From positions 1 to 33,669 of the forward strand of contig CALENB010000114.1 of NCBI GenBank assembly GCA_937910235.1: DNA of 33,669 bases, read 5' to 3'. Shown here one piece after another: positions 22,666-33,517 of the stretch. A program made the translations under genes and the position numbers. The stretch is from an uncultured Myxococcales bacterium (lineage in GTDB: Bacteria; Myxococcota_A; UBA9042). A model generated the notes under the pieces. It saw nothing but the letters and a program-made list of their open reading frames with translations, had not been told where the DNA came from and did no database searches. Positions within the stretch are counted from its first letter, which is position 1. Each line of letters begins with the position of its first letter.

Positions 22666-22866
22666 GGGGGCCTCCTAAGTGGATCTCCTACAGACTAAGC
22701 CACGGTGGCGGCGACGATGCAAAATCTGTGGCGGAAATGCTGGCCAACGCAGGGCACCGCGCCGCGCCCGGCCCACCAACCTGCGGCTGCGCGGCACACT
22801 GTTGCGGCGCGCGCCACAGTGATAAGGTCCGGCCGTTCCTTACGACTTGGTGCGACGGAGGCCAAA

Positions 22867-23682
22867 ATGCCCAGAATAGCTAAATTTTTTCCGACGATTG
22901 CGGCGGTCGTGGTTGCGGCTGCGCTGAGCGCCTGTTCTGCGGCGCAGGTCGCGGAGAAGCCGCCGGAGGCGCCAAAAGGCCCGCCACCCGGGATGATCGA
23001 GCTCATCAAGTACGAGAAGAAGACCCAACAGCTGCTCGACGCGACGCTCGCGCTCGGGAAGGTGCGCGCCAACGTCGACGAGACGCGGCGCCGACTCGCG
23101 GCGGTATGTGTGGACTATCCCAAGCATCAGGCCTGCGCTCAGGAGACGGCGGCGTTGTACGCGCGGACGGCGTTCTGCAAAGACAAGACGTTTGTCGGCC
23201 ACATCGACGAGATCGTGAAGGCGTGTCATCAGGGTCAATGCAAGCAGGTCGACGAAGCGAACCTCATCACGCGCTCACAGTACATGTCCCTCGTCTCCCA
23301 CCTGCCGCACAGCCTGATCACCTTCAAGTCGGGCAACTCGCGGCTCGATAAGATGGACCGGCGGCAGCTGCAAGACTTCATCGAGAACATCGGCGCAGAG
23401 AAGGGCTACGTGATCATCGTCGGCCGCGCCAGCAAAGACGGCCCGTGGCGCAAGAACCTCGAGTACGCCCTCGGTCGCGCTGAGAGCACGCGCAAGTTCC
23501 TCGTCGAGGACATGGGGCTGTCGCCCAAGCGAGTCGGCTACATTACGTACGGCCACGCCAAGATGTACCTGACCGCGCTCGATAAAGACCGCCTCACAGA
23601 CCGCAGGCTCTCGGTAAAACAGGCCAATCGCAGCGCGCTGGTGTTCGCCTACCCGTGTTTTGACCCGAACCGTGCGCCGTAG
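22867..23682 (+). CDS. OmpA-like C-terminal domain lipoprotein
   Basis: A 271-residue predicted outer-membrane lipoprotein. The signal peptide reads MPRIAKFFPTIAAVVVAA and the lipobox LSAC, followed by a short Pro-rich spacer (KPPEAPKGPPPG). A helical middle with four or five Cys residues leads to an OmpA/Pal-type peptidoglycan-binding domain: SLITFKSGNSRLDKMDRRQL, VIIVGRASKDGPWRKNLEYA, then LGRAESTRKFLVEDMGL. The final NRSALVFAYPC is also typical, although the helix motif is somewhat diverged. It probably ties the outer membrane to the cell wall. GGAGG at 22857-22861, five bases before the ATG at 22867, sets the start well inside the longer open frame. The thioredoxin-like gene follows almost without a gap. 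Confidence 0.87.
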   Translation: MPRIAKFFPTIAAVVVAAALSACSAAQVAEKPPEAPKGPPPGMIELIKYEKKTQQLLDATLALGKVRANVDETRRRLAAVCVDYPKHQACAQETAALYARTAFCKDKTFVGHIDEIVKACHQGQCKQVDEANLITRSQYMSLVSHLPHSLITFKSGNSRLDKMDRRQLQDFIENIGAEKGYVIIVGRASKDGPWRKNLEYALGRAESTRKFLVEDMGLSPKRVGYITYGHAKMYLTALDKDRLTDRRLSVKQANRSALVFAYPCFDPNRAP

Positions 23683-23683
23683 G

Positions 23684-24517
23684 ATGCGCGTGTCATCCAC
23701 AACGCCGCCGCGGTGGCGCAGCGGTGGCCCGGCTGTGGTGTGGGCCGTTGGGCTGCGGGCCGTCGCGTCGCGGGCCGTCGTACTGAGCGCCGCCGTGTGG
23801 ACCGCAGGGCTGCTCCCGGCCGGCTGTGGCACGCCGATTCCCGAGGGTAGCGTCGTGCTCCAACAAGCCCGCCTCGCCGAGCTGGAGCGTCGTGGCGCTG
23901 AGGTCATCCGTTGCAGGGAGCGCTTGGGCCAGGCGGGTACGGCGCATCACAACACGCGCGTGGCGTTGGAGCGCGCTCAGCAGCGGGTCTCGCTGCTGGA
24001 GCGGCGTCTCGGCATCGGCAAGTTTACACCGACCACGTTGCAGGCCGCCGGGTCGGATTGGCAGCTGACGCTACCCAAAGTGCAGCAGCTCGCCGCGCAT
24101 GGCGAGAACCCCACGCGGGTCGCCCTCGGCGCCCTGCTCAAAGGTCACAGGGCGGTCGTGATCACCTACTGGGCGACGTGGTGTAAGCCGTGTACCAGCC
24201 CAGAGGAGCTCGACCACCTCAAGGTGCTGCAACGCCAGCTCGCCCGCTACGGCGCCACGCTCCAGAGCATCGCTGTGGACAGCTACGACAAGGTCACGTC
24301 CGACGCACGCGCGCCGACTTGGCACTATCCGCTGCTCCAACGCGACAACGCCCACCTGGAGACGCTGCCGAGGGCTTTGGTGCAGTCCACGGGCGTCGGC
24401 CTGCCGCTCTTTGTCGTGGTCGACGCGACCGGCCGTGTGCTGTGGTTGCGCAAGGGCAAGCTCGACGGCGCCGTCGTCGCGGAGCTCGTCACCGCGGCTG
24501 CGCGCGTGAATCGTTAG
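23684..24517 (+). CDS. Thioredoxin-fold (TlpA/ResA-like) lipoprotein with coiled coil
   Basis: A predicted envelope disulfide or redox protein of 277 residues. The N-terminal hydrophobic segment ends in the lipobox LPAGC. Residues about 65-115 form a coiled coil (QQARLAELERRGAEVIRC and RVALERAQQRVSLLERRL). The C-terminal half is a thioredoxin fold with the active site YWATWCKPCTSPEEL, the cis-Pro loop in GVGLPLFVVVDATGRVLW, and a final helix. The Lys-Pro between the active-site Cys suggests a reducing or thiol-exchange role like TlpA/ResA. The start is uncertain. The ATG at 23684 is one base after the OmpA gene stop and lacks a clear Shine-Dalgarno; the frame opens at 23660. The close linkage suggests the two proteins work in the same compartment, perhaps on the Cys residues of the first. 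Confidence 0.83.
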   Translation: MRVSSTTPPRWRSGGPAVVWAVGLRAVASRAVVLSAAVWTAGLLPAGCGTPIPEGSVVLQQARLAELERRGAEVIRCRERLGQAGTAHHNTRVALERAQQRVSLLERRLGIGKFTPTTLQAAGSDWQLTLPKVQQLAAHGENPTRVALGALLKGHRAVVITYWATWCKPCTSPEELDHLKVLQRQLARYGATLQSIAVDSYDKVTSDARAPTWHYPLLQRDNAHLETLPRALVQSTGVGLPLFVVVDATGRVLWLRKGKLDGAVVAELVTAAARVNR

Positions 24518-24539: not shown

Positions 24540-27257
24540 TTAGTTCAGGTCCATCGCGCATCTGAAGCCGATCGTCGGCCCGACCTTGCCCTCGATGCGG
24601 CTGAAGGCGCGCACACCTGCGAGCTTCGCGTTGAGATGGCCGCCCTTGGCCGTGTGCGTGGTGCCGCCCGTGACCACCGGGTCGGTCTTGCTCCAGGTGC
24701 TGAGCGCCTTGGCGTCCCACGTGTCGAGCACCCACTCGGCGACGTTGCCACCCATGTCTTGCGCGCCGTACGGGCTCCGATCCTTCTGAAACGTGCCGAC
24801 GACACGTGTGGTGCCCAAGCCGCAGCCCGCGCCGCCGTTACCTTGCATCACCGTCCAGAAGCAGCTCGGTGGCTCGTTGCCCCACGGAAAGACGCGCGTC
24901 CCAGCTTTGCAGGCGCCCAGCGCCGAATCGCAGCCCCCGCGTGCCGCGCGCTCCCACTCCGCTTCCGTCGGCAGGCGCTTCTGCTGTGCCTTGCAGTACT
25001 CGCTCGCCTGCAACCAGCTCACGCAGTTGACGGGGTGGTTAGCCCGCACGCTCTTCTTGGACCAATTGCACGTCGGCACCGCCGTGCTCGGTGCCGAGGC
25101 ACACGCCTTTGCGTTGATACACGCTTCGTACTGCGCCACGGTGACCTCGTAGCGGTCGATAAACACGGCCTTTACGGTTACCTCAGTCGGTGGCAGCGCT
25201 TCGGGTGGACAGGTGCCGAAGTTGGTGTTGTTGCACCCAGCCCAGCCGCTCGATGCCGGGCTCAGCACCATCCCGACCACGTTGGCGACGCAGCTGTTCT
25301 CGGCGCAGATCTTGCCGGCGCCGCACGTCGCGCCGTCGGCCTGTGGCTTGCTGACGCACTTCTTGGTGACCGCATCGCACACCTCGATCGTGCATGGGTT
25401 GCCGTCGTCCTTGCACGCGGTGACGTCCGGGCTCCCCTTGCAGGCGCCCGTGAGCGGGTCACACGTCGACGCGAAACATCCGTCTTTGGGCTGCGTCGCG
25501 CAGTCCACGGCAGTTTTGTCGAGGACGCTGCAGAAGTGAACGGCGCCGGACTTGTCGCAGAACGGTTTTCCCTTGCACAAGTCGCCCACGCCGAAGCAGT
25601 CAGCGTCCTTGGTGCAGGCGCAGAAATCCGTCCCAGAGTCGCATTTTCCGGCCTGACAGGTGTCGTACTTGGTGCAAGGCTTGCCGTCTTCGCACGGCGT
25701 GTTGTCCGCCAAGTTCGTCTCTTTGCACTTGCCGGTCTTCGGCGTGCACGTGTTCTCGGTGCAGGCCGCCGTCGGCTTCGCGCACGTCACGATGCTGCTG
25801 TCCAAGACTTTGCAGCCGGGGAGGTCGCCGGACGTATCGCAGTAGAGCGTGCCGTTGCACAGATCGCCGTCCTCCTTGCTCGCGCAGTCCTTGTCCGTGG
25901 TGCAGGTGCAGATGTTGGTTCCCGCGTTGCAGGCGCCCTTGCCATCGCACCAGTCGCCGACGGTGCACGGCGTGCCGTCGGCGTCGCACTTAGCGTAGAC
26001 GTTGGCGAAGGCCATGGCGCACTTGCCAGTGGTCTTGCCGCATTCGTTGGTTTGGCAAGCGTCGTCGGCGCCGCTCGGGCACACCACCACCGTCGCGGGG
26101 TTGAGTTTGCACGCCGGCGGCAACAGCTGCGTGTCGCAGTACAGCACGCCGTTGCAGAGGTCGCCGTCATCGAACTTGGCGCACTCCGAATCGCTCTTGC
26201 ACCCGCAAACATCGGTTCCTGGCGCGCAAGTCCCGGCTTTGCAGGTGTCATCCTTGGTGCATGGGTTGCCGTCGTCGCACGTCACAAACTGCTTGGTGGT
26301 CGGCTTCATGGCACACTTGCCGTTGGTCTCGTCGCAGGTGTTGACCGCACAGGGCCCGTCGTCGCTCGCGTCGCACACCACCGCCGTGCTCGGGATGAGC
26401 TGGCAGTTGGGTTGGGTGGAGAGGGTGTCGCAGTAGTACGTGCCACCGCACAGCGAGCCCTTCGCGGCGCAGTCTGTGTCGGTCTTGCACGCGCAGTTGG
26501 GCACCGATCCGGGGTAACACACGCCGCCCTGGCAGTGGTCTTGCGCCGTGCAGAAATCGCCGTCGTCGCAGGCTGAGTCCGGCCCGATATCCGGCTTCAA
26601 CTCGGCCTTGCAGCCGCCGGTGAGCGCCTCGCACTTCCACGCCTTGACGCAGCCGCCAGCCTCTACCTCCGGGCACTTGGGGATCGTCACGGGGTTCACC
26701 TTACAGGTGCGCAGGTCGCCGCTCGTATCGCAGTAGAACTCGCCCAAGCACTTGTCGCCGCCGTTCTTGCTGGCGCAGTCGGCAGACGTCTTGCACTCGC
26801 ATTTGACCGAGTTTCCGCCCTGGCAGACGCCCGCCTTGCAGGTCATGTCGGTCAGGCACTTGTCATCGGTCTGGCAGCCGACGCCGTCCTTCGTGATTTG
26901 GTGGACGCATTGCCCTTTCACGCACTCGTCGTACGCGCAGCCCAGCCCAGCGACGCCGCAGTCGGTGTTCTGCGTGCACAGCTTGCCGCCACCGTCCTGT
27001 CCCACGTCCGCCGACCCAGTGTCAGCCCCGCCATCTAGCGTCGCGCCGGAGTCAGGGGCCGCGCCGGAGTCAGAGGTCGCGACCGCTGAATCGGCCTCGC
27101 CCGAATCGAGGCTGGCGGTGTCCACACCGACGCTCGCTGTGTCAGCGCTAGGCCCGAACGCGGTCTCAGCTGGCACAACGTCATAACAACCGACGCACGG
27201 CAGGATCAGCAAACAAGAAGTCCACGCGGCCAGGCGCGCCACAGCTCGGGTCTTCAT
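24540..27257 (-). CDS. Cys-rich repeat lipoprotein with C-terminal FGE-like domain
   Basis: A 905-residue surface lipoprotein with lipobox CVGC and an Asp/Ser/Gly-rich spacer to about residue 90. A Cys-rich segment, then five tandem repeats of about 95 residues (roughly residues 152-640), follow. Each repeat has the form CxCxxDxDCA, GDLCNGxLYCD, then CDDGNPCTxxDTC. The even Cys spacing suggests disulfide-stapled modules like the CTDC repeats of eukaryotic surface proteins. Residues about 687-905 are a formylglycine-generating-enzyme/sulfatase-modifying fold: IDRYEVTVAQYEACI, RLPTEAEWERAARGG and DMGGNVAEWVLDTWD, ending IGFRCAMD. The two catalytic Cys of real FGE, expected shortly after the GG of KGGHLNAKLAGVRAFSR, are absent, so I predict a binding rather than catalytic role. 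It is last in the four-gene lipoprotein cluster, six bases after the preceding stop. Confidence 0.85.
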   Translation of the reverse strand: MKTRAVARLAAWTSCLLILPCVGCYDVVPAETAFGPSADTASVGVDTASLDSGEADSAVATSDSGAAPDSGATLDGGADTGSADVGQDGGGKLCTQNTDCGVAGLGCAYDECVKGQCVHQITKDGVGCQTDDKCLTDMTCKAGVCQGGNSVKCECKTSADCASKNGGDKCLGEFYCDTSGDLRTCKVNPVTIPKCPEVEAGGCVKAWKCEALTGGCKAELKPDIGPDSACDDGDFCTAQDHCQGGVCYPGSVPNCACKTDTDCAAKGSLCGGTYYCDTLSTQPNCQLIPSTAVVCDASDDGPCAVNTCDETNGKCAMKPTTKQFVTCDDGNPCTKDDTCKAGTCAPGTDVCGCKSDSECAKFDDGDLCNGVLYCDTQLLPPACKLNPATVVVCPSGADDACQTNECGKTTGKCAMAFANVYAKCDADGTPCTVGDWCDGKGACNAGTNICTCTTDKDCASKEDGDLCNGTLYCDTSGDLPGCKVLDSSIVTCAKPTAACTENTCTPKTGKCKETNLADNTPCEDGKPCTKYDTCQAGKCDSGTDFCACTKDADCFGVGDLCKGKPFCDKSGAVHFCSVLDKTAVDCATQPKDGCFASTCDPLTGACKGSPDVTACKDDGNPCTIEVCDAVTKKCVSKPQADGATCGAGKICAENSCVANVVGMVLSPASSGWAGCNNTNFGTCPPEALPPTEVTVKAVFIDRYEVTVAQYEACINAKACASAPSTAVPTCNWSKKSVRANHPVNCVSWLQASEYCKAQQKRLPTEAEWERAARGGCDSALGACKAGTRVFPWGNEPPSCFWTVMQGNGGAGCGLGTTRVVGTFQKDRSPYGAQDMGGNVAEWVLDTWDAKALSTWSKTDPVVTGGTTHTAKGGHLNAKLAGVRAFSRIEGKVGPTIGFRCAMDLN

Positions 27258-27263
27258 TCCTGA

Positions 27264-28130
27264 CTACTCCCAGTTGCCATATGAGTCATCGCAGGTCTTG
27301 AACGCATCCGCCAATCGACTCAGGTCTGTCGGCCCCGGTTCAGCCGCGGCGGTCTTGGGCTCAACCAGGTTCACGCTCACGGTCCGAACGTCGCCCTGCA
27401 CCTCGAGCCAGAGATCCCAGCCGGGCTCCTTCGTGGCGGCCAAGGACTCGCACGCCAGGAACGGCCATCGCGCCAGATCGAGCACATCCGCCTGCGCGGT
27501 CGGCATCTCCAACACGTAGTTTGCGCCCTTTGAGTTGCCGACAGTTGCGACCTCGCGGCGGCGAAGATACGGGGCGCCGGCCATCGTCCACCACTGCCGC
27601 TCGCCGTCGATGTTGCGACAGACCTTCAACCCCGCCATCGCCTCCTTGCAGAGCAGCTGACGGGTGATGGCGTCCGGCGCGAACTGATCCCAATCCACCT
27701 GGGCCACGCAGCCGTCGTCGTAGTTCTTCTGCAGCAGGGTCACCTCGGCGTCGTCGACCCCCAACGCCTTGAAGCTGCCAGGACCCGAATCGTTCGGGTC
27801 ATACGTTGTTTTTACGGCGCTGCAGGTGAAGCAGTCGTACACGGTCCCGCGCTTGTTGCAGGCCCAGATGCCGTTCGGCCGCTCCGCACAGGTCGTCTTG
27901 GCCAAGCCACTCTGGTCGCTGATCGTCCACGCCGCGCTGGCGCCAAACTTCTCCGCGCACGTCTTCACAGGCTCCGGGGCGGCTGCTTTTGCGGGCTCAT
28001 CGCTGCCACAGCCGGCGCTCAAGATCACCGCCGCCGCAAGCACTAGGCCGAACGCGGCGCGCCGGCGAATCAAGCGTCGCGTGTGGCGCGGCAGTCCAGC
28101 TCTCTCGGCCATTCGCTTCATGTCTGCCAT
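27264..28130 (-). CDS. Unrecognised Cys-rich lipoprotein
   Basis: I do not recognise this 288-residue protein. It has a basic N-terminus (MADMKRMAERAGLPRHTRR), a hydrophobic stretch FGLVLAAAVILSAGC with lipobox SAGC, then a short Ala/Pro/Lys spacer. The mature part contains ten further Cys, including CFTC and the C-terminal TCDDSYGNWE, and looks like a compact disulfide-bonded domain with several Trp. There are no catalytic motifs I can name. The frame stays open to 28244. A GAGGGGGG run abuts the ATG at 28130 and lies nine bases from the ATG at 28121, so either may be the start. It is third in the lipoprotein cluster, 23 bases after the alpha/beta-hydrolase-like gene and six bases before the Cys-rich repeat gene. 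Confidence 0.72.
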   Translation of the reverse strand: MADMKRMAERAGLPRHTRRLIRRRAAFGLVLAAAVILSAGCGSDEPAKAAAPEPVKTCAEKFGASAAWTISDQSGLAKTTCAERPNGIWACNKRGTVYDCFTCSAVKTTYDPNDSGPGSFKALGVDDAEVTLLQKNYDDGCVAQVDWDQFAPDAITRQLLCKEAMAGLKVCRNIDGERQWWTMAGAPYLRRREVATVGNSKGANYVLEMPTAQADVLDLARWPFLACESLAATKEPGWDLWLEVQGDVRTVSVNLVEPKTAAAEPGPTDLSRLADAFKTCDDSYGNWE

Positions 28131-28153
28131 CCCCCCTCGCTCGATTCCACGGG

Positions 28154-29686
28154 TCACTGCCACTGCTCTTTCACGACCTCGTGGGTCACAACCTTGCCGT
28201 TGGGCAGGTTGCCGCCGTGCACGCGGAGCGCACCGTAGGCCCACTTCTTGTCGCCCTTGTTGAAGTGGAAGTCGATCGCGCCCACCGTGATCTTCCAGAA
28301 GCCATACCAGTCCAATCCGTCGAGATAACCGCTCTTGTTGGTGAAGTCAGTCACCCCGCCAGGCTTGCCCACGATCGTCAGCGCGGCGCTGTGGTCGTCG
28401 TGCAGCTCGGGGCTCGTCGGCGGGTTCGGATCGTCTTTGCCCGTGCCATGCAGCACGATGACCTGCTTTCGACCGACCTTCAGACCGTCGTAAATCGCGA
28501 GCGCGTTCGGCTTGTTCACGTCTTTGTACGGGGTCTTGGTGTCGTCCTCTGCCTGCACAAAAGTGAAGGCGACATCGGCAGCAGCTGGGATCTTCTTCAC
28601 GGTGATGGAGGCGTCCGTGTAGTTGCTCGTGAGCAGGCTCTTCTGGTTGTCCACGCTGAACGCCAGCACCGCGCGGGGATCGACCCATTGCTGCTTTGCG
28701 TCGCTGCCGTACGTCTGCGCGGCCGCAAGCACGGCCACTTTGGCGCCCATGCCGTGGCCCGCGAACACGACCTCATCCTTGAGGGCGACGGAGACGCCGT
28801 CGAACAGCTTCGTCGTCGCCGTGAGCAGATCCTGCGCCATGCGGTCGTGGTCGCCGTCGAGCAGCCCGTTCTCCACCCGCACAAACACCGCGACCGTGCC
28901 GTGGCTCGCGACGTGCTCCATGAACTTCCGATAGCCCTCACCGAACGTGCCGATGATTCCGCCGGCATTGTAGAGGCCCTTTTCGTGCACAAAGAAGAGC
29001 ACTGGGTGGCCGCCGGCACACGACGGGCGATATACGATCATCTTTTTGTAGCCCTGGCCCAGACCGCCGCCATACGCGATCTCTTTGGGGCTCTGCACCG
29101 AGCAAGCGCCCTTGGCGCCCGGATGATCGCCGGTCGGTTGCTTGTCGACTGGACAGGCAGGGCAGGGGTTCGCGGCGTCAGCGCCGCCGGCGTCCGACGT
29201 GGACCCGCCGTCAGCGCCGACATCGCCCGGGCCACCGCCGTCCCCGGCAGCCGCGTCCAGCCCTGATCCGTCGGCGTTGGTGTCGCCCAAACCGCCATCA
29301 GCGAGCGCGACCCCGTCGCCTGTCGCGGCGCCAGCGTCAGGGCCAGCGTCAGGGCCAGCGATGTCGCCCCCACCGTCGGCGTTGTCGGTGCCGTCTGTGA
29401 GGGCGCCGCCGTCCGCGTTCGACGCAGCCGCATCGCCCGCGCCGACGTCCACGGCCGTCGCGTCGCCTTGGTCGTCGCCGTCGTTGAGCGTGGCGCTTGC
29501 GTCGACCTGGCCAGCCGCGCCGCCGTCAACCGCCTTGTCCTTGGCCGCGTCCTCGTCGCCGCACCCGGCCAACCCCAACACCACCAAGGTGCCCGCCAAC
29601 CCGGCAAACAGCCCGGAGAATGGGCCGAATAGCGGCCTCAGAGGTCGGAGCGACGGCCACGTCGCGCTGGGCTGCGACGCGATCAC
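28154..29686 (-). CDS. Alpha/beta-hydrolase-like lipoprotein lacking the nucleophile Ser
   Basis: A 510-residue lipoprotein with lipobox LAGC and then an Asp/Gly/Ala-rich spacer of about 130 residues. The C-terminal domain has the look of a cutinase/chlorophyllase-type alpha/beta hydrolase: KKMIVYRPSCAGGHPVLFFV, a strand before HVASHGTVAVFVRV, and the nucleophile elbow FAGHGMGAKVAVLAA. The elbow normally reads GHSMG; here the Ser codon is GGC for Gly (28751-28753). A possible His lies in LHDDHSAAL. Without that Ser I predict an inactive or repurposed binding fold, unless another residue substitutes. The long frame runs to 29818, but the GTG at 29686 overlaps the preceding gene's stop as GTGA, which suggests translational coupling. 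No Shine-Dalgarno is seen there. It is second of four in the cluster. Confidence 0.75.
   Translation of the reverse strand: MIASQPSATWPSLRPLRPLFGPFSGLFAGLAGTLVVLGLAGCGDEDAAKDKAVDGGAAGQVDASATLNDGDDQGDATAVDVGAGDAAASNADGGALTDGTDNADGGGDIAGPDAGPDAGAATGDGVALADGGLGDTNADGSGLDAAAGDGGGPGDVGADGGSTSDAGGADAANPCPACPVDKQPTGDHPGAKGACSVQSPKEIAYGGGLGQGYKKMIVYRPSCAGGHPVLFFVHEKGLYNAGGIIGTFGEGYRKFMEHVASHGTVAVFVRVENGLLDGDHDRMAQDLLTATTKLFDGVSVALKDEVVFAGHGMGAKVAVLAAAQTYGSDAKQQWVDPRAVLAFSVDNQKSLLTSNYTDASITVKKIPAAADVAFTFVQAEDDTKTPYKDVNKPNALAIYDGLKVGRKQVIVLHGTGKDDPNPPTSPELHDDHSAALTIVGKPGGVTDFTNKSGYLDGLDWYGFWKITVGAIDFHFNKGDKKWAYGALRVHGGNLPNGKVVTHEVVKEQWQ
29329..29356. repeat. Short direct repeat in the Asp-rich linker
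   Basis: Two full copies and a partial third copy of gccagcgtcagg encode the Gly-Pro-Asp-Ala repeat in the spacer of the lipoprotein at 28154-29686. It is a small in-frame slippage repeat of the kind that can lengthen such linkers. Confidence 0.6.
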
Positions 29687-30315
29687 TTGATCGGGTTCAG
29701 CACGATCTTGAGCCCCATGGCGATCTTCAGGTCGGCCTTGCCAGCCGGCACGGTCTCGCCCTTCTTCACCACCATCGTCGCGGCCATGCCTTGGCTGAAG
29801 GCCAGCGTCGTCAGCCACTGCTGCGCCGTCTTCTGACCGGCGGCGTCGAGCACCGCGTTCACCGCGGTCGTCGAACCGGCAGGAATCGATGGGATCGTCG
29901 CGATCTTCGCCGAGCCTGCGGTGTCCTTGGCGCCGATGGGGCCGATGTAGAGTTCGAACGACGGCAGCGCCGTCGTCACCGTGTTGGTCGTCGGCGTCAC
30001 CACGATCTTCGTGATCTCAAAAGACTTCACGCGTCCCTTGGCGTCCTTGAGCGCCTGCACCTCGGCGACAAGATCGACGTCGCTCGGCGGCGGCGCGATC
30101 GTCTTCGAGACGTCGGCCGGCGCGAGCTGGCCAGCCGCAGCGCCCATCGCGGTGCCGATATCGAAGGACGTGGCGAACTCGTACTCGGTGCTGATCGGGA
30201 TGTCGAGCAAGCTCTTGTTGTCGTCCACAGCTTTGTTGAACTGGTCGCAACCGGTGAAGGCGAGCGCCGAGACGAGGATCGCTACAGTGAGCGTGGTTCG
30301 ATTCAGTAGGTTCAT
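29683..30315 (-). CDS. Unrecognised lipoprotein, first of the cluster
   Basis: A 210-residue predicted lipoprotein. MNLLNRTTLTVAILVSALAF is followed by lipobox FTGC and a +2 Asp. In Escherichia coli a +2 Asp would favour inner-membrane retention, but that rule may not hold here. The mature part is mostly beta strand: KSFEITKIVVTPTTNTVTTA, PSFELYIGPIGAKD, IATIPSIPAGST, and a final DLKIAMGLKIVLNP. It lacks cysteines other than the anchor. I recall similar proteins in deltaproteobacterial genomes only as uncharacterised lipoproteins, and no function can be given. AGGAGA lies nine bases before the ATG. It appears to head the four-gene cluster, with its promoter in the 153 bases shared with the divergent lyase gene. 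Its stop overlaps the GTG start of the next gene by four bases. Confidence 0.78.
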   Translation of the reverse strand: MNLLNRTTLTVAILVSALAFTGCDQFNKAVDDNKSLLDIPISTEYEFATSFDIGTAMGAAAGQLAPADVSKTIAPPPSDVDLVAEVQALKDAKGRVKSFEITKIVVTPTTNTVTTALPSFELYIGPIGAKDTAGSAKIATIPSIPAGSTTAVNAVLDAAGQKTAQQWLTTLAFSQGMAATMVVKKGETVPAGKADLKIAMGLKIVLNPIK

Positions 30316-30468: not shown

Positions 30469-31998
30469 ATGGCCAAGTCGACCCCAGCCATCCCAACCAC
30501 CACCGCTGACCCGCGTCGCCGCGCCACGATCCCAGCCTCAGGCGGAGATCCAGCCGCGCTGCTGGCCGAAATGCAGGCCATGCGCGCCGAAGATGCAGAC
30601 TGGCAGGGCGGTCGCACGTGGTCGATGGTCTATTACATCGGCCCGGAGCATCACGCGTTCCTCAAGCAGGCCCACAACCTCTACTTCGCCGAAAACGGCC
30701 TCAACCCGATGGCGTTCAAGAGCCTGAAGCGCATGGAGTCCGAGGTCGTGCAGATGAGCGCGAGCATGCTCAACGGCGGTCGGGACACGGTCGGCACCAT
30801 GACGTCGGGCGGCACCGAGTCGATCCTGCTCACGGTGAAGGCGGCCCGCGATCGCGCGCGTAAGTCCCGGCCGTGGATCTTGCGACCCGAGCTCGTCGCG
30901 CCAAAGACGATCCACGTCGCTTTTGACAAGGCGTGCCACTACTTCAACGTCAAGCCGCGCTACATCGACATCGGGCCGGACTATCGGGCGGACGTCGAGG
31001 CGATGCGTAAGGCGATCGGTCGCAACACGATCCTCGTCGCCGCCTCGGCGCCGCAGTACCCGCAAGGCGTCATCGATCCGATCGCAGAGCTGGGCGAGAT
31101 CTGTGAGGCCAAGGGTGTGCCGTTCCACGTCGACGCCTGTTTTGGGGGCTTCTTGCTGCCTTGGATCGAGAAGCTCGGTCACGACATCCCGACGTTCGAC
31201 TTCCGCGTGCCCGGCGTCACCTCGATGAGCGCCGACGTGCACAAGTTCGGCTACGCGGCCAAGGGCGCGTCGGTGATCCTGTATCGCGACATGAGCTACC
31301 TCAAGCATCAGTTCTTTGTCTCGACGGATTGGCCTGGCGGCATCTACGCCTCGCCGTCGATGCCAGGGACGCGCCCAGGCGGGCCGATCGCGGCGGCGTG
31401 GGCGGCGATGAAGAGCGTCGGCGAGGCCGGCTACCTCGAGTTGGCGCGCGAAGCCGTCGCCGCGGCCCAAGAGCTACGTGACGGCGTGGAGGCCATCGAG
31501 GGTCTCACCGTGCTCGGCGCGGCCCACTCCACCGTTGTCGCGATCGGCACGACCGACGGCGCGGTCGACATCTACGCCGTCGCGGACGTGCTGCAGGACA
31601 AGGGTTGGAGCATCGACCGACAGCAGACGCCCGCGTGCCTGCACTGCACCGTCAACGCCCACAACCGGCCGCAGGTGCCGACGTTTCTGGTGGACCTGAA
31701 GGAGGCGGCGGCGCATGTCGCCGCCCATCCGGAGCTGGCGAGCGAGGGTAACGCCGCGATGTACGGGATGATGGCCAAAGTGCCCGTGCGCGGGCTCGTC
31801 AAACTGAGCGTTCAGAAGGTGATGGAGAGCATGTACGGCCCAGACGGCACCGTGCCGGATCTCTCGCAGCTAGGCGCCGCTGAGGATGACGGTTTTGTGC
31901 TGCAGTTCATGCACAAATACGGCGACCAGGCGATGGAGATGCTCGACCGCGTCAACGGTTTCCGCGCCAGCATCGGCGGGCGCCTCAGGCGGAAATAG
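30469..31998 (+). CDS. PLP-dependent lyase, sphingosine-1-phosphate-lyase-like
   Basis: A 509-residue fold-type I pyridoxal-phosphate enzyme of the group II decarboxylase superfamily, closest in pattern to sphingosine-1-phosphate lyases. Such enzymes cleave phosphorylated long-chain bases to an aldehyde and phosphoethanolamine. Motifs: GTMTSGGTESILLTVKAARD (cofactor phosphate site), VAFDKACHYFNVKPRYIDI, PFHVDACFGGFLLPWIE (pyridine-ring Asp), and the Schiff-base lysine Lys259 in SMSADVHKFGYAAKGAS. The ending segment MYGMMAKVP is also typical of that group. There is no N-terminal membrane helix, unlike the eukaryotic enzyme, so it is probably soluble. Sphingolipid-making bacteria of the Myxococcota type are a plausible setting. 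GGAG about six bases before the ATG supports the start. It is convergent with ppa. Confidence 0.86.
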   Translation: MAKSTPAIPTTTADPRRRATIPASGGDPAALLAEMQAMRAEDADWQGGRTWSMVYYIGPEHHAFLKQAHNLYFAENGLNPMAFKSLKRMESEVVQMSASMLNGGRDTVGTMTSGGTESILLTVKAARDRARKSRPWILRPELVAPKTIHVAFDKACHYFNVKPRYIDIGPDYRADVEAMRKAIGRNTILVAASAPQYPQGVIDPIAELGEICEAKGVPFHVDACFGGFLLPWIEKLGHDIPTFDFRVPGVTSMSADVHKFGYAAKGASVILYRDMSYLKHQFFVSTDWPGGIYASPSMPGTRPGGPIAAAWAAMKSVGEAGYLELAREAVAAAQELRDGVEAIEGLTVLGAAHSTVVAIGTTDGAVDIYAVADVLQDKGWSIDRQQTPACLHCTVNAHNRPQVPTFLVDLKEAAAHVAAHPELASEGNAAMYGMMAKVPVRGLVKLSVQKVMESMYGPDGTVPDLSQLGAAEDDGFVLQFMHKYGDQAMEMLDRVNGFRASIGGRLRRK

Positions 31999-32662: not shown

Positions 32663-33517
32663 TTACTGGACGATCCACTCCGTCTTCAATGGGCCGTAGT
32701 CGACGACGATCTGGCCGAGCACCGGCACGTCGAAGAACACGCTGCCCTGCGCCTGCACGGGCACCTTCAGCACAGGATCCTTGCCGTCGACGAACTGCTG
32801 CACCCAGCTGAGCGCGGTGCGCTGAAAGACCGTGAGCGCCTGGTCAATGCCCATGGAGAACACCAGATCCAGCTTCACGTCGCCGCCGGCCGCGATCGTG
32901 GACTTCTTCAACTCCTCCTGCACCTCGCCCGAGATGACGCCGGCGATGAGGTTCGGCAGCCGCTTTTGTAGAAAATCGTCGACCGATTTCACGCGCTTGT
33001 CGTTGATGGTGCAGGCCCCTGGGCGCGGCGTGCCATCGCAGGTCGGCGCGTCGCTGCCGCATAGACTCACACACAGCGCGCCGAGCTCCTGCGCTGCCTC
33101 GCCAGGGAAGAGGGTGAGCGCAACCATGACGTCCAACGCGGGAACGGGCACGTCGTTTGGGTTCTTGATACCGACGGAGAGGCCGAAGTCGAACTTGAGC
33201 GTCTCTTTGGCCGGCGGCAATCCCAGAACGCCAGCGCAGGCGGCTTTAGCGACGAACCCATCCACTACGTTCGGGCAGTAATACGCGGCGAGCTTCACCA
33301 GACCGGGGCGCTTGCGCAGCGTGAGGCCAGACGCCTCTACCTCAGGGGCCAGCATCGTCGGCTGCAGGATCCCCGCGTCAGGATCGAGCGCCGCCTGGGC
33401 GATGGGCTCCAGCAGCTCACAGCCGCCGCAGAGCAGCAGGGCGACGACGACGAGGGCCGCGCGCAGGCCGGTGAACCGGGCCGTCTTTCGCTGAGAATGG
33501 GTCGCGTGATGTTGCAT
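32663..33517 (-). CDS. LEA14/WHy-like lipoprotein
   Basis: A 284-residue lipoprotein. [15 protein letters not shown] gives the lipobox CGGC after a basic N-terminus ([17 protein letters not shown]). The mature part contains [20 protein letters not shown] followed by [11 protein letters not shown], which has the NPN and PVP features of LEA type 2 / water-stress-and-hypersensitive-response domains. A Cys-rich loop ([12 protein letters not shown]) interrupts it, and the end is [19 protein letters not shown]. Such domains are immunoglobulin-like beta sandwiches with no known catalysis. The substrate or partner is unknown. GGAGG at good spacing before the ATG at 33517 sets the start. The gene lies between ppa downstream and the 14-bp repeat near the window edge. 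Confidence 0.72.

Follow-up and report, generated by a model that had tools for sequence, protein, structure and literature searches.

A probable genus-level neighbourhood of envelope lipoproteins in an uncultured Myxococcales bacterium, including a chlorophyllase-like protein with glycine at the nucleophile position

The closest described counterparts of the lipoproteins considered here are enzymes, or proteins built on enzyme folds. The alpha/beta-hydrolases chlorophyllase (PF07224) and the PETase-type polyester hydrolases have a nucleophile elbow and an N-terminal half that align with the product of gene C; by contrast with these enzymes, C has Gly in place of the nucleophilic Ser, a predicted lipid anchor and an Asp-rich tether. 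The neuroligins, which belong to the eukaryotic cholinesterase branch, are non-catalytic alpha/beta-hydrolase adhesion proteins, in which the nucleophile has been lost and the fold is used for binding; they can be compared with C by analogy only. SUMF1, the formylglycine-generating enzyme (FGE), has its fold in common with the product of gene A (PF03781), which lacks the two active-site Cys of SUMF1. PorK/GldK are, like A, lipoproteins with an FGE-type domain lacking the two catalytic Cys, and PorK, for which the FGE fold without the Cys pair has been solved, serves as a structural hub (PMC12421860). A matches the GldK model in part, but its score of 51.9 bits is far under the equivalog cut-off of 350 bits and it has a Cys-rich stalk in addition, and membership of A in the T9SS PorK/GldK group was rejected. 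The head of A is of the same broad fold class as the DGR variable proteins (C-type lectin/FGE fold), a Treponema variable protein being among its matches; A was nevertheless rejected as a DGR target, there being no template copy of its 3' end in the genome and the sole reverse transcriptase being on another contig.

The four genes (D, C, B and A; Table 1) lie in a window, i.e. the whole stretch of DNA analysed, of 33,669 nucleotides. The reading that we favour, with a probability of roughly 0.6, is one of envelope lipoproteins that act individually within a neighbourhood shared at the genus level, in which D, C and B likely form an operon and C has recently turned into a binding protein. The parts of the locus are mostly found apart in related genomes, and the nucleophilic Ser of C is kept in a sister species, so a local grouping is likelier than a conserved machine.

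Gene layout, lipoprotein signals and chance expectation

D and C overlap by 4 bases, D ending at 29683 and C having a GTG start at 29686, and the gene coordinates reproduce exactly the arrangement described in the earlier note, i.e. four same-strand genes with intergenic distances of -4 (D/C), 23 (C/B) and 6 (B/A) bases. The other structural features that had been reported are likewise present: each of the four proteins has a lipobox, those of A and B being atypical, but canonical in their orthologues; the five Cys-rich repeats in one protein are those of A, which has a part-repeat besides; the Asp-rich spacer, given as 130 residues, is in C (~129 residues, 28 of them Asp); and the two unrecognised proteins are B and D, neither of which matched a family in the Pfam search.

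Table 1. Coordinates of genes, domains and neighbouring features; positions are those of the window unless a contig is named
Feature	Position	Strand	Remarks
Gene D	29683..30315	-	210-aa predicted lipoprotein; mature part modelled as beta-sandwich/jelly-roll
Gene C	28154..29686	-	510-aa predicted lipoprotein; chlorophyllase-like alpha/beta-hydrolase, Gly at nucleophile position
Gene B	27264..28130	-	288-aa Cys-rich predicted lipoprotein, 11 Cys, nearly genus-restricted
Gene A	24540..27257	-	905-aa predicted lipoprotein: Asp/Ser-rich linker, Cys-rich stalk, FGE-like head
C spacer, Asp/Gly/Ala-rich	29177..29563	-	residues 42-170, 28 Asp in 129
C nucleophile-elbow codon GGC (Gly, GHGMG)	28751..28753	-	Ser in G003 and most relatives
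C candidate triad acid Asp (D215, aligned domain)	28541..28543	-	invariant in 15 homologues; role inferred from position
C candidate triad His (H265, aligned domain)	28391..28393	-	kept in window; Tyr in G009; role inferred
A Cys-rich repeats, five, ~100 residues each	25278..26801	-	residues 153 to ~660
A FGE-sulfatase domain (PF03781)	24555..25211	-	without both SUMF1 active-site Cys
TlpA/AhpC-TSA-like predicted lipoprotein, WCKPC motif	23660..24517	+	convergent to A; syntenic within genus
PLP-dependent decarboxylase-like neighbour	30469..31998	+	divergent from D; marks genus-level synteny
~107-bp repeat copies, G001	L068:1-171 and L069:5172-5280		between B and A

Convergent to A are the TlpA-like protein and an OmpA-like predicted lipoprotein (22705-23682); that a thiol-disulfide protein is encoded beside a pair of Cys-rich lipoproteins could have a meaning or could simply reflect synteny. 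On the other side of the locus, the PLP-dependent decarboxylase, which lies ~150 bp from the divergent D, is near MfnA but scores below the MfnA cut-off. Scans of the locus for promoters and terminators gave nothing above chance, and the PADLOC models for anti-phage defence gave no match.

In each of the four N termini a basic n-region is followed by a hydrophobic core and then by a Cys in surroundings resembling a lipobox (AFTG↓C in D, GLAG↓C in C, LSAG↓C in B and PCVG↓C in A). The atypical residues are at -3, i.e. Cys in A and Ser in B; a strict pattern missed both proteins and a relaxed pattern found both, and the residues preceding the aligned Cys in the orthologues from the congeners G001 and G003 are canonical (VSGC in G001 and TAGC in G003 for A; LSGC and VVGC for B). 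All four proteins would undergo export and lipidation at the lipobox Cys, and would then be retained in the envelope, probably at the outer membrane. In lipoprotein sorting by M. xanthus, Lys at +2 is an inner-membrane signal and Ala at +7 has been linked to the extracellular matrix (PMC3222651). Lys at +2 is absent from A-D, the rule being that of M. xanthus and perhaps not that of the host. Ala is present at +7 of the mature protein in all four, against a background of 10/55, and, as judged by eye, is kept in the orthologues only for C.

The frequency with which such signals arise in this genome was estimated from 20 unselected, randomly sampled contigs, in which 20 of 155 genes (13%) passed the lipobox test, the gene caller and the lipobox rule both being home-made and approximate. 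One adjacent same-strand pair of lipoproteins was seen in the sampled contigs against 1.4 expected, i.e. there is no excess. Calculated by hand from the 13% rate and about 4,900 genes, the number of runs of four lipoproteins expected per genome is between ~0.3 (with the same strand required) and 1.2, and hence four in a row is notable, not extreme. Between 22.7 and 33.5 kb, 7 of 9 genes look like lipoproteins, which is above the prediction from the ~13% background. Asp-rich linkers are ordinary here, since 7 of 20 randomly sampled lipoproteins of the same genome carry them; Cys-rich repeats and FGE domains are likewise common, with 72 matches to A within its own genome (FGE matches included) and 21 FGE domains, such that the parts from which the locus is built are ordinary for the lineage.

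Genes A, B and D

The Cys-rich repeats of A start at residues 153, 255, 351, 450 and 546, the additional part-repeat being N-terminal, and the protein has 97 Cys in total. Its C terminus is an FGE-sulfatase domain (136 bits, E = 1.7e-39). On alignment with human SUMF1, both active-site Cys (336 and 341 in SUMF1) are missing from A, and likewise from two orthologues; none of the 21 FGE domains of this genome, some of which are partial matches, has the canonical Cys pair, and thus its absence is the rule for the family here. It may be that the C-type-lectin-like FGE fold of A acts as a binding head, carried on a disulfide-rich stalk of variable repeat number. The length of the stalk does vary, the G001 orthologue having ~400 residues and an array reduced to about half a repeat, and full-length relatives of A sit in unrelated gene contexts. 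In G003, an additional FGE-domain predicted lipoprotein (L067:6339-7457) is located between the decarboxylase and the pyrophosphatase, which points to turnover of the FGE domain at the locus.

D represents a phylum-wide, unnamed lipoprotein family with a confidently predicted fold, members of which were found in 70 of 379 genomes of the phylum. The model of D, a small lipoprotein, is a beta-sandwich (mean pLDDT 91.4); homology to solved structures was rejected, as only generic beta-sandwich/jelly-roll matches were obtained (TM <0.5), many of them to viral capsids, and armadillo matches of ~28 residues, to designed repeats, were discounted. B would be a lineage-specific disulfide-rich lipoprotein, most of its 11 Cys being conserved across the three species. 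Its structure model, made from a 3-sequence alignment, was unusable (pLDDT 38.7), and a weak PDB match was discounted. Outside the genus there is one distant, stand-alone homologue of B, in G009, on a contig with other genes; one further, weak match is in G001.

Gene C and its nucleophile position

Profile comparison aligned the nucleophile elbow and N-terminal half of C with those of chlorophyllase and polyester hydrolases, and the profile matches 8fjd. All 15 C homologues match PF07224 at E<=0.01, the window protein with 21.4 bits, which is below the Pfam cut-off of 26 bits. The elbow is GHSMG, with Ser, in 12 of the 15, including the congener G003, in which the complete Ser-Asp-His triad is kept as far as the sequence indicates; Ser is lacking from the elbows of the window protein (GHGMG), of G001 (GHGVG) and of G009, from another genus (GHGAG), the last having lost both Ser and His. 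The window protein and that of G001 also share a change of HG to HE in the stretch from which the oxyanion region is normally formed. In G016:C32, an intact C hydrolase is accompanied, ~2.5 kb away, by a truncated further copy (L072:5645-5956).

The tree of C requires at least two changes to account for the state without Ser, and we infer two losses. The Gly codons are GGC, GGT and GGA; the Ser of G003 is a possible reversion or regain, because its codon, AGC, is one step from GGC, whereas the Ser codons of the other homologues are TCN. The dN of C is 0.162 between the window species (G000) and G001, and 0.24 to G003, about twice that of the PLP-dependent neighbour in each comparison. With a dS of about 1.06 for the former pair, dN/dS is well below 1, and purifying selection persists after the loss of Ser; no acceleration of C following the loss was seen relative to the intact orthologue or the neighbouring enzyme.

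Since the nucleophilic Ser has become Gly, C most likely still binds a ligand or partner without cleaving it, i.e. it is most likely a recent conversion from an esterase to a non-hydrolytic binding protein, with a chlorophyllase-like fold on a flexible Asp-rich tether and an ancestor that probably hydrolysed an ester. Against this, Asp and His remain in the window protein, and it might be argued from the retention of these positions, and from the constraint on the domain, that C is still enzymatic, either through an atypical mechanism or at a very low level of activity. Gly, however, has no nucleophilic side chain, the change of HG to HE affects the oxyanion region in both G000 and G001, and G009 is without both Ser and His; continued catalysis is thus very unlikely. 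Decay of an enzyme gene, for which the loss of catalytic and oxyanion-region residues could be cited, is extremely improbable given the open frame, the low dN/dS and the lack of acceleration against the intact orthologue. Conversion to a binding protein, as preferred here, would mean that the Ser-bearing and Ser-lacking orthologues in one synteny slot record how an anchored esterase loses its nucleophile and stays under selection, and such a conversion is directly testable in one pair of C proteins.

Conservation of the locus and its interpretation

The order D-C-B is kept in the congeners G001 and G003, in both of which A adjoins the same TlpA-like neighbour, the gene order being conserved at 50-78% protein identity. 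Synteny covers the whole ~13 kb around D-C-B-A in both congeners, with the decarboxylase, pyrophosphatase and TlpA-like genes kept in G001 and G003, and the OmpA-like and Usp genes seen in G001; as these unrelated flanks are equally conserved, gene order does not set the lipoproteins apart from their surroundings. D-C-B is close-packed in all three congeners, while close packing of B and A is seen only in the window. In G003, A starts ~830 bp from the end of B, and in G001, B and A are on separate contigs, both of which end in copies of a dispersed ~107-bp repeat, indicating a longer spacer in G001, filled with repeats. D, C and B likely form a short operon, with A beside it and close-packed only incidentally in this species. 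The ~107-bp repeat is intergenic, has two inverted-repeat segments and occurs in >40 copies in G001 and in ~40 diverged copies in G003; it was not found in the genome of the window.

Full-length homologues of C are confined to the same family, more distant matches among the 379 genomes of the phylum being mainly to the N-terminal hydrolase half. C without D and D without C each occur in many genomes, and where both were found outside the genus, i.e. in G006, G011 and G009, they are unlinked. In one other genus D has as neighbours a Ser/Thr kinase gene and genes resembling those for RNase J, EngB, RimI and ThiE (identities judged from sequence and not from profiles), and in G009 the gene that follows D is radical-SAM-like and unrelated. 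Outside the genus the homologues are therefore scattered and not adjacent, which is the pattern that the earlier note had named as counting against its proposal; the one possible exception is in G014, from another genus, where the gene that begins 8 bases after D, on a truncated contig, encodes an incomplete predicted lipoprotein that has an Asp-rich spacer and could be a C homologue.

That proposal was of one cell-surface complex, assembled from all four lipoproteins with their enzyme folds in non-catalytic form, which would serve in sensing, in attachment or in contact with prey or substrate. The tight same-strand packing of A-D, the possible D-C pair in G014 and the precedent of PorK, a non-catalytic FGE lipoprotein that acts as an assembly hub (PMC12421860), would accord with it, as would the order D-C-B-A, which does hold in three species; the flanks, however, hold as well, and neither congener has a tight B-A junction. 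Similarly, the loss of catalytic residues applies to A (Cys pair) and to C (Gly for the nucleophile), but not to the set as a whole, the triad of C being intact in G003. Homologues of C, D and A do not accompany one another in most relatives, B is nearly absent beyond the genus and the repeat array of A is missing in G001 but for about half a repeat, all of which makes a shared complex decidedly unlikely; the locus would be of much importance as a four-lipoprotein complex only if joint assembly of the four were demonstrated.

It is tenable, though on balance unlikely, that D, C and B alone form a functional unit, co-transcribed and acting together, with A independent: the three are closely packed in all the congeners and A stands away from them in G001 and G003, but the distributions of D and C outside the genus are independent, and the radical-SAM-like gene after D in G009 is unrelated. 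A more specific proposal, that C has turned from a surface esterase to a surface receptor at least twice in one family, paired with the jelly-roll D in the genus and possibly in G014, such that D-C(-B) would be a small receptor module, is distinctly doubtful. Individually acting lipoproteins, the reading preferred here, must itself be set against the conserved order at the protein identities given, which could reflect shared function, the excess of lipoproteins between 22.7 and 33.5 kb, and the gene following D in G014. A further predicted lipoprotein, at 32663-33517 of the window, has no Pfam match; its G014 homologue directly precedes D, an arrangement which suggests an older link between D and this lipoprotein.
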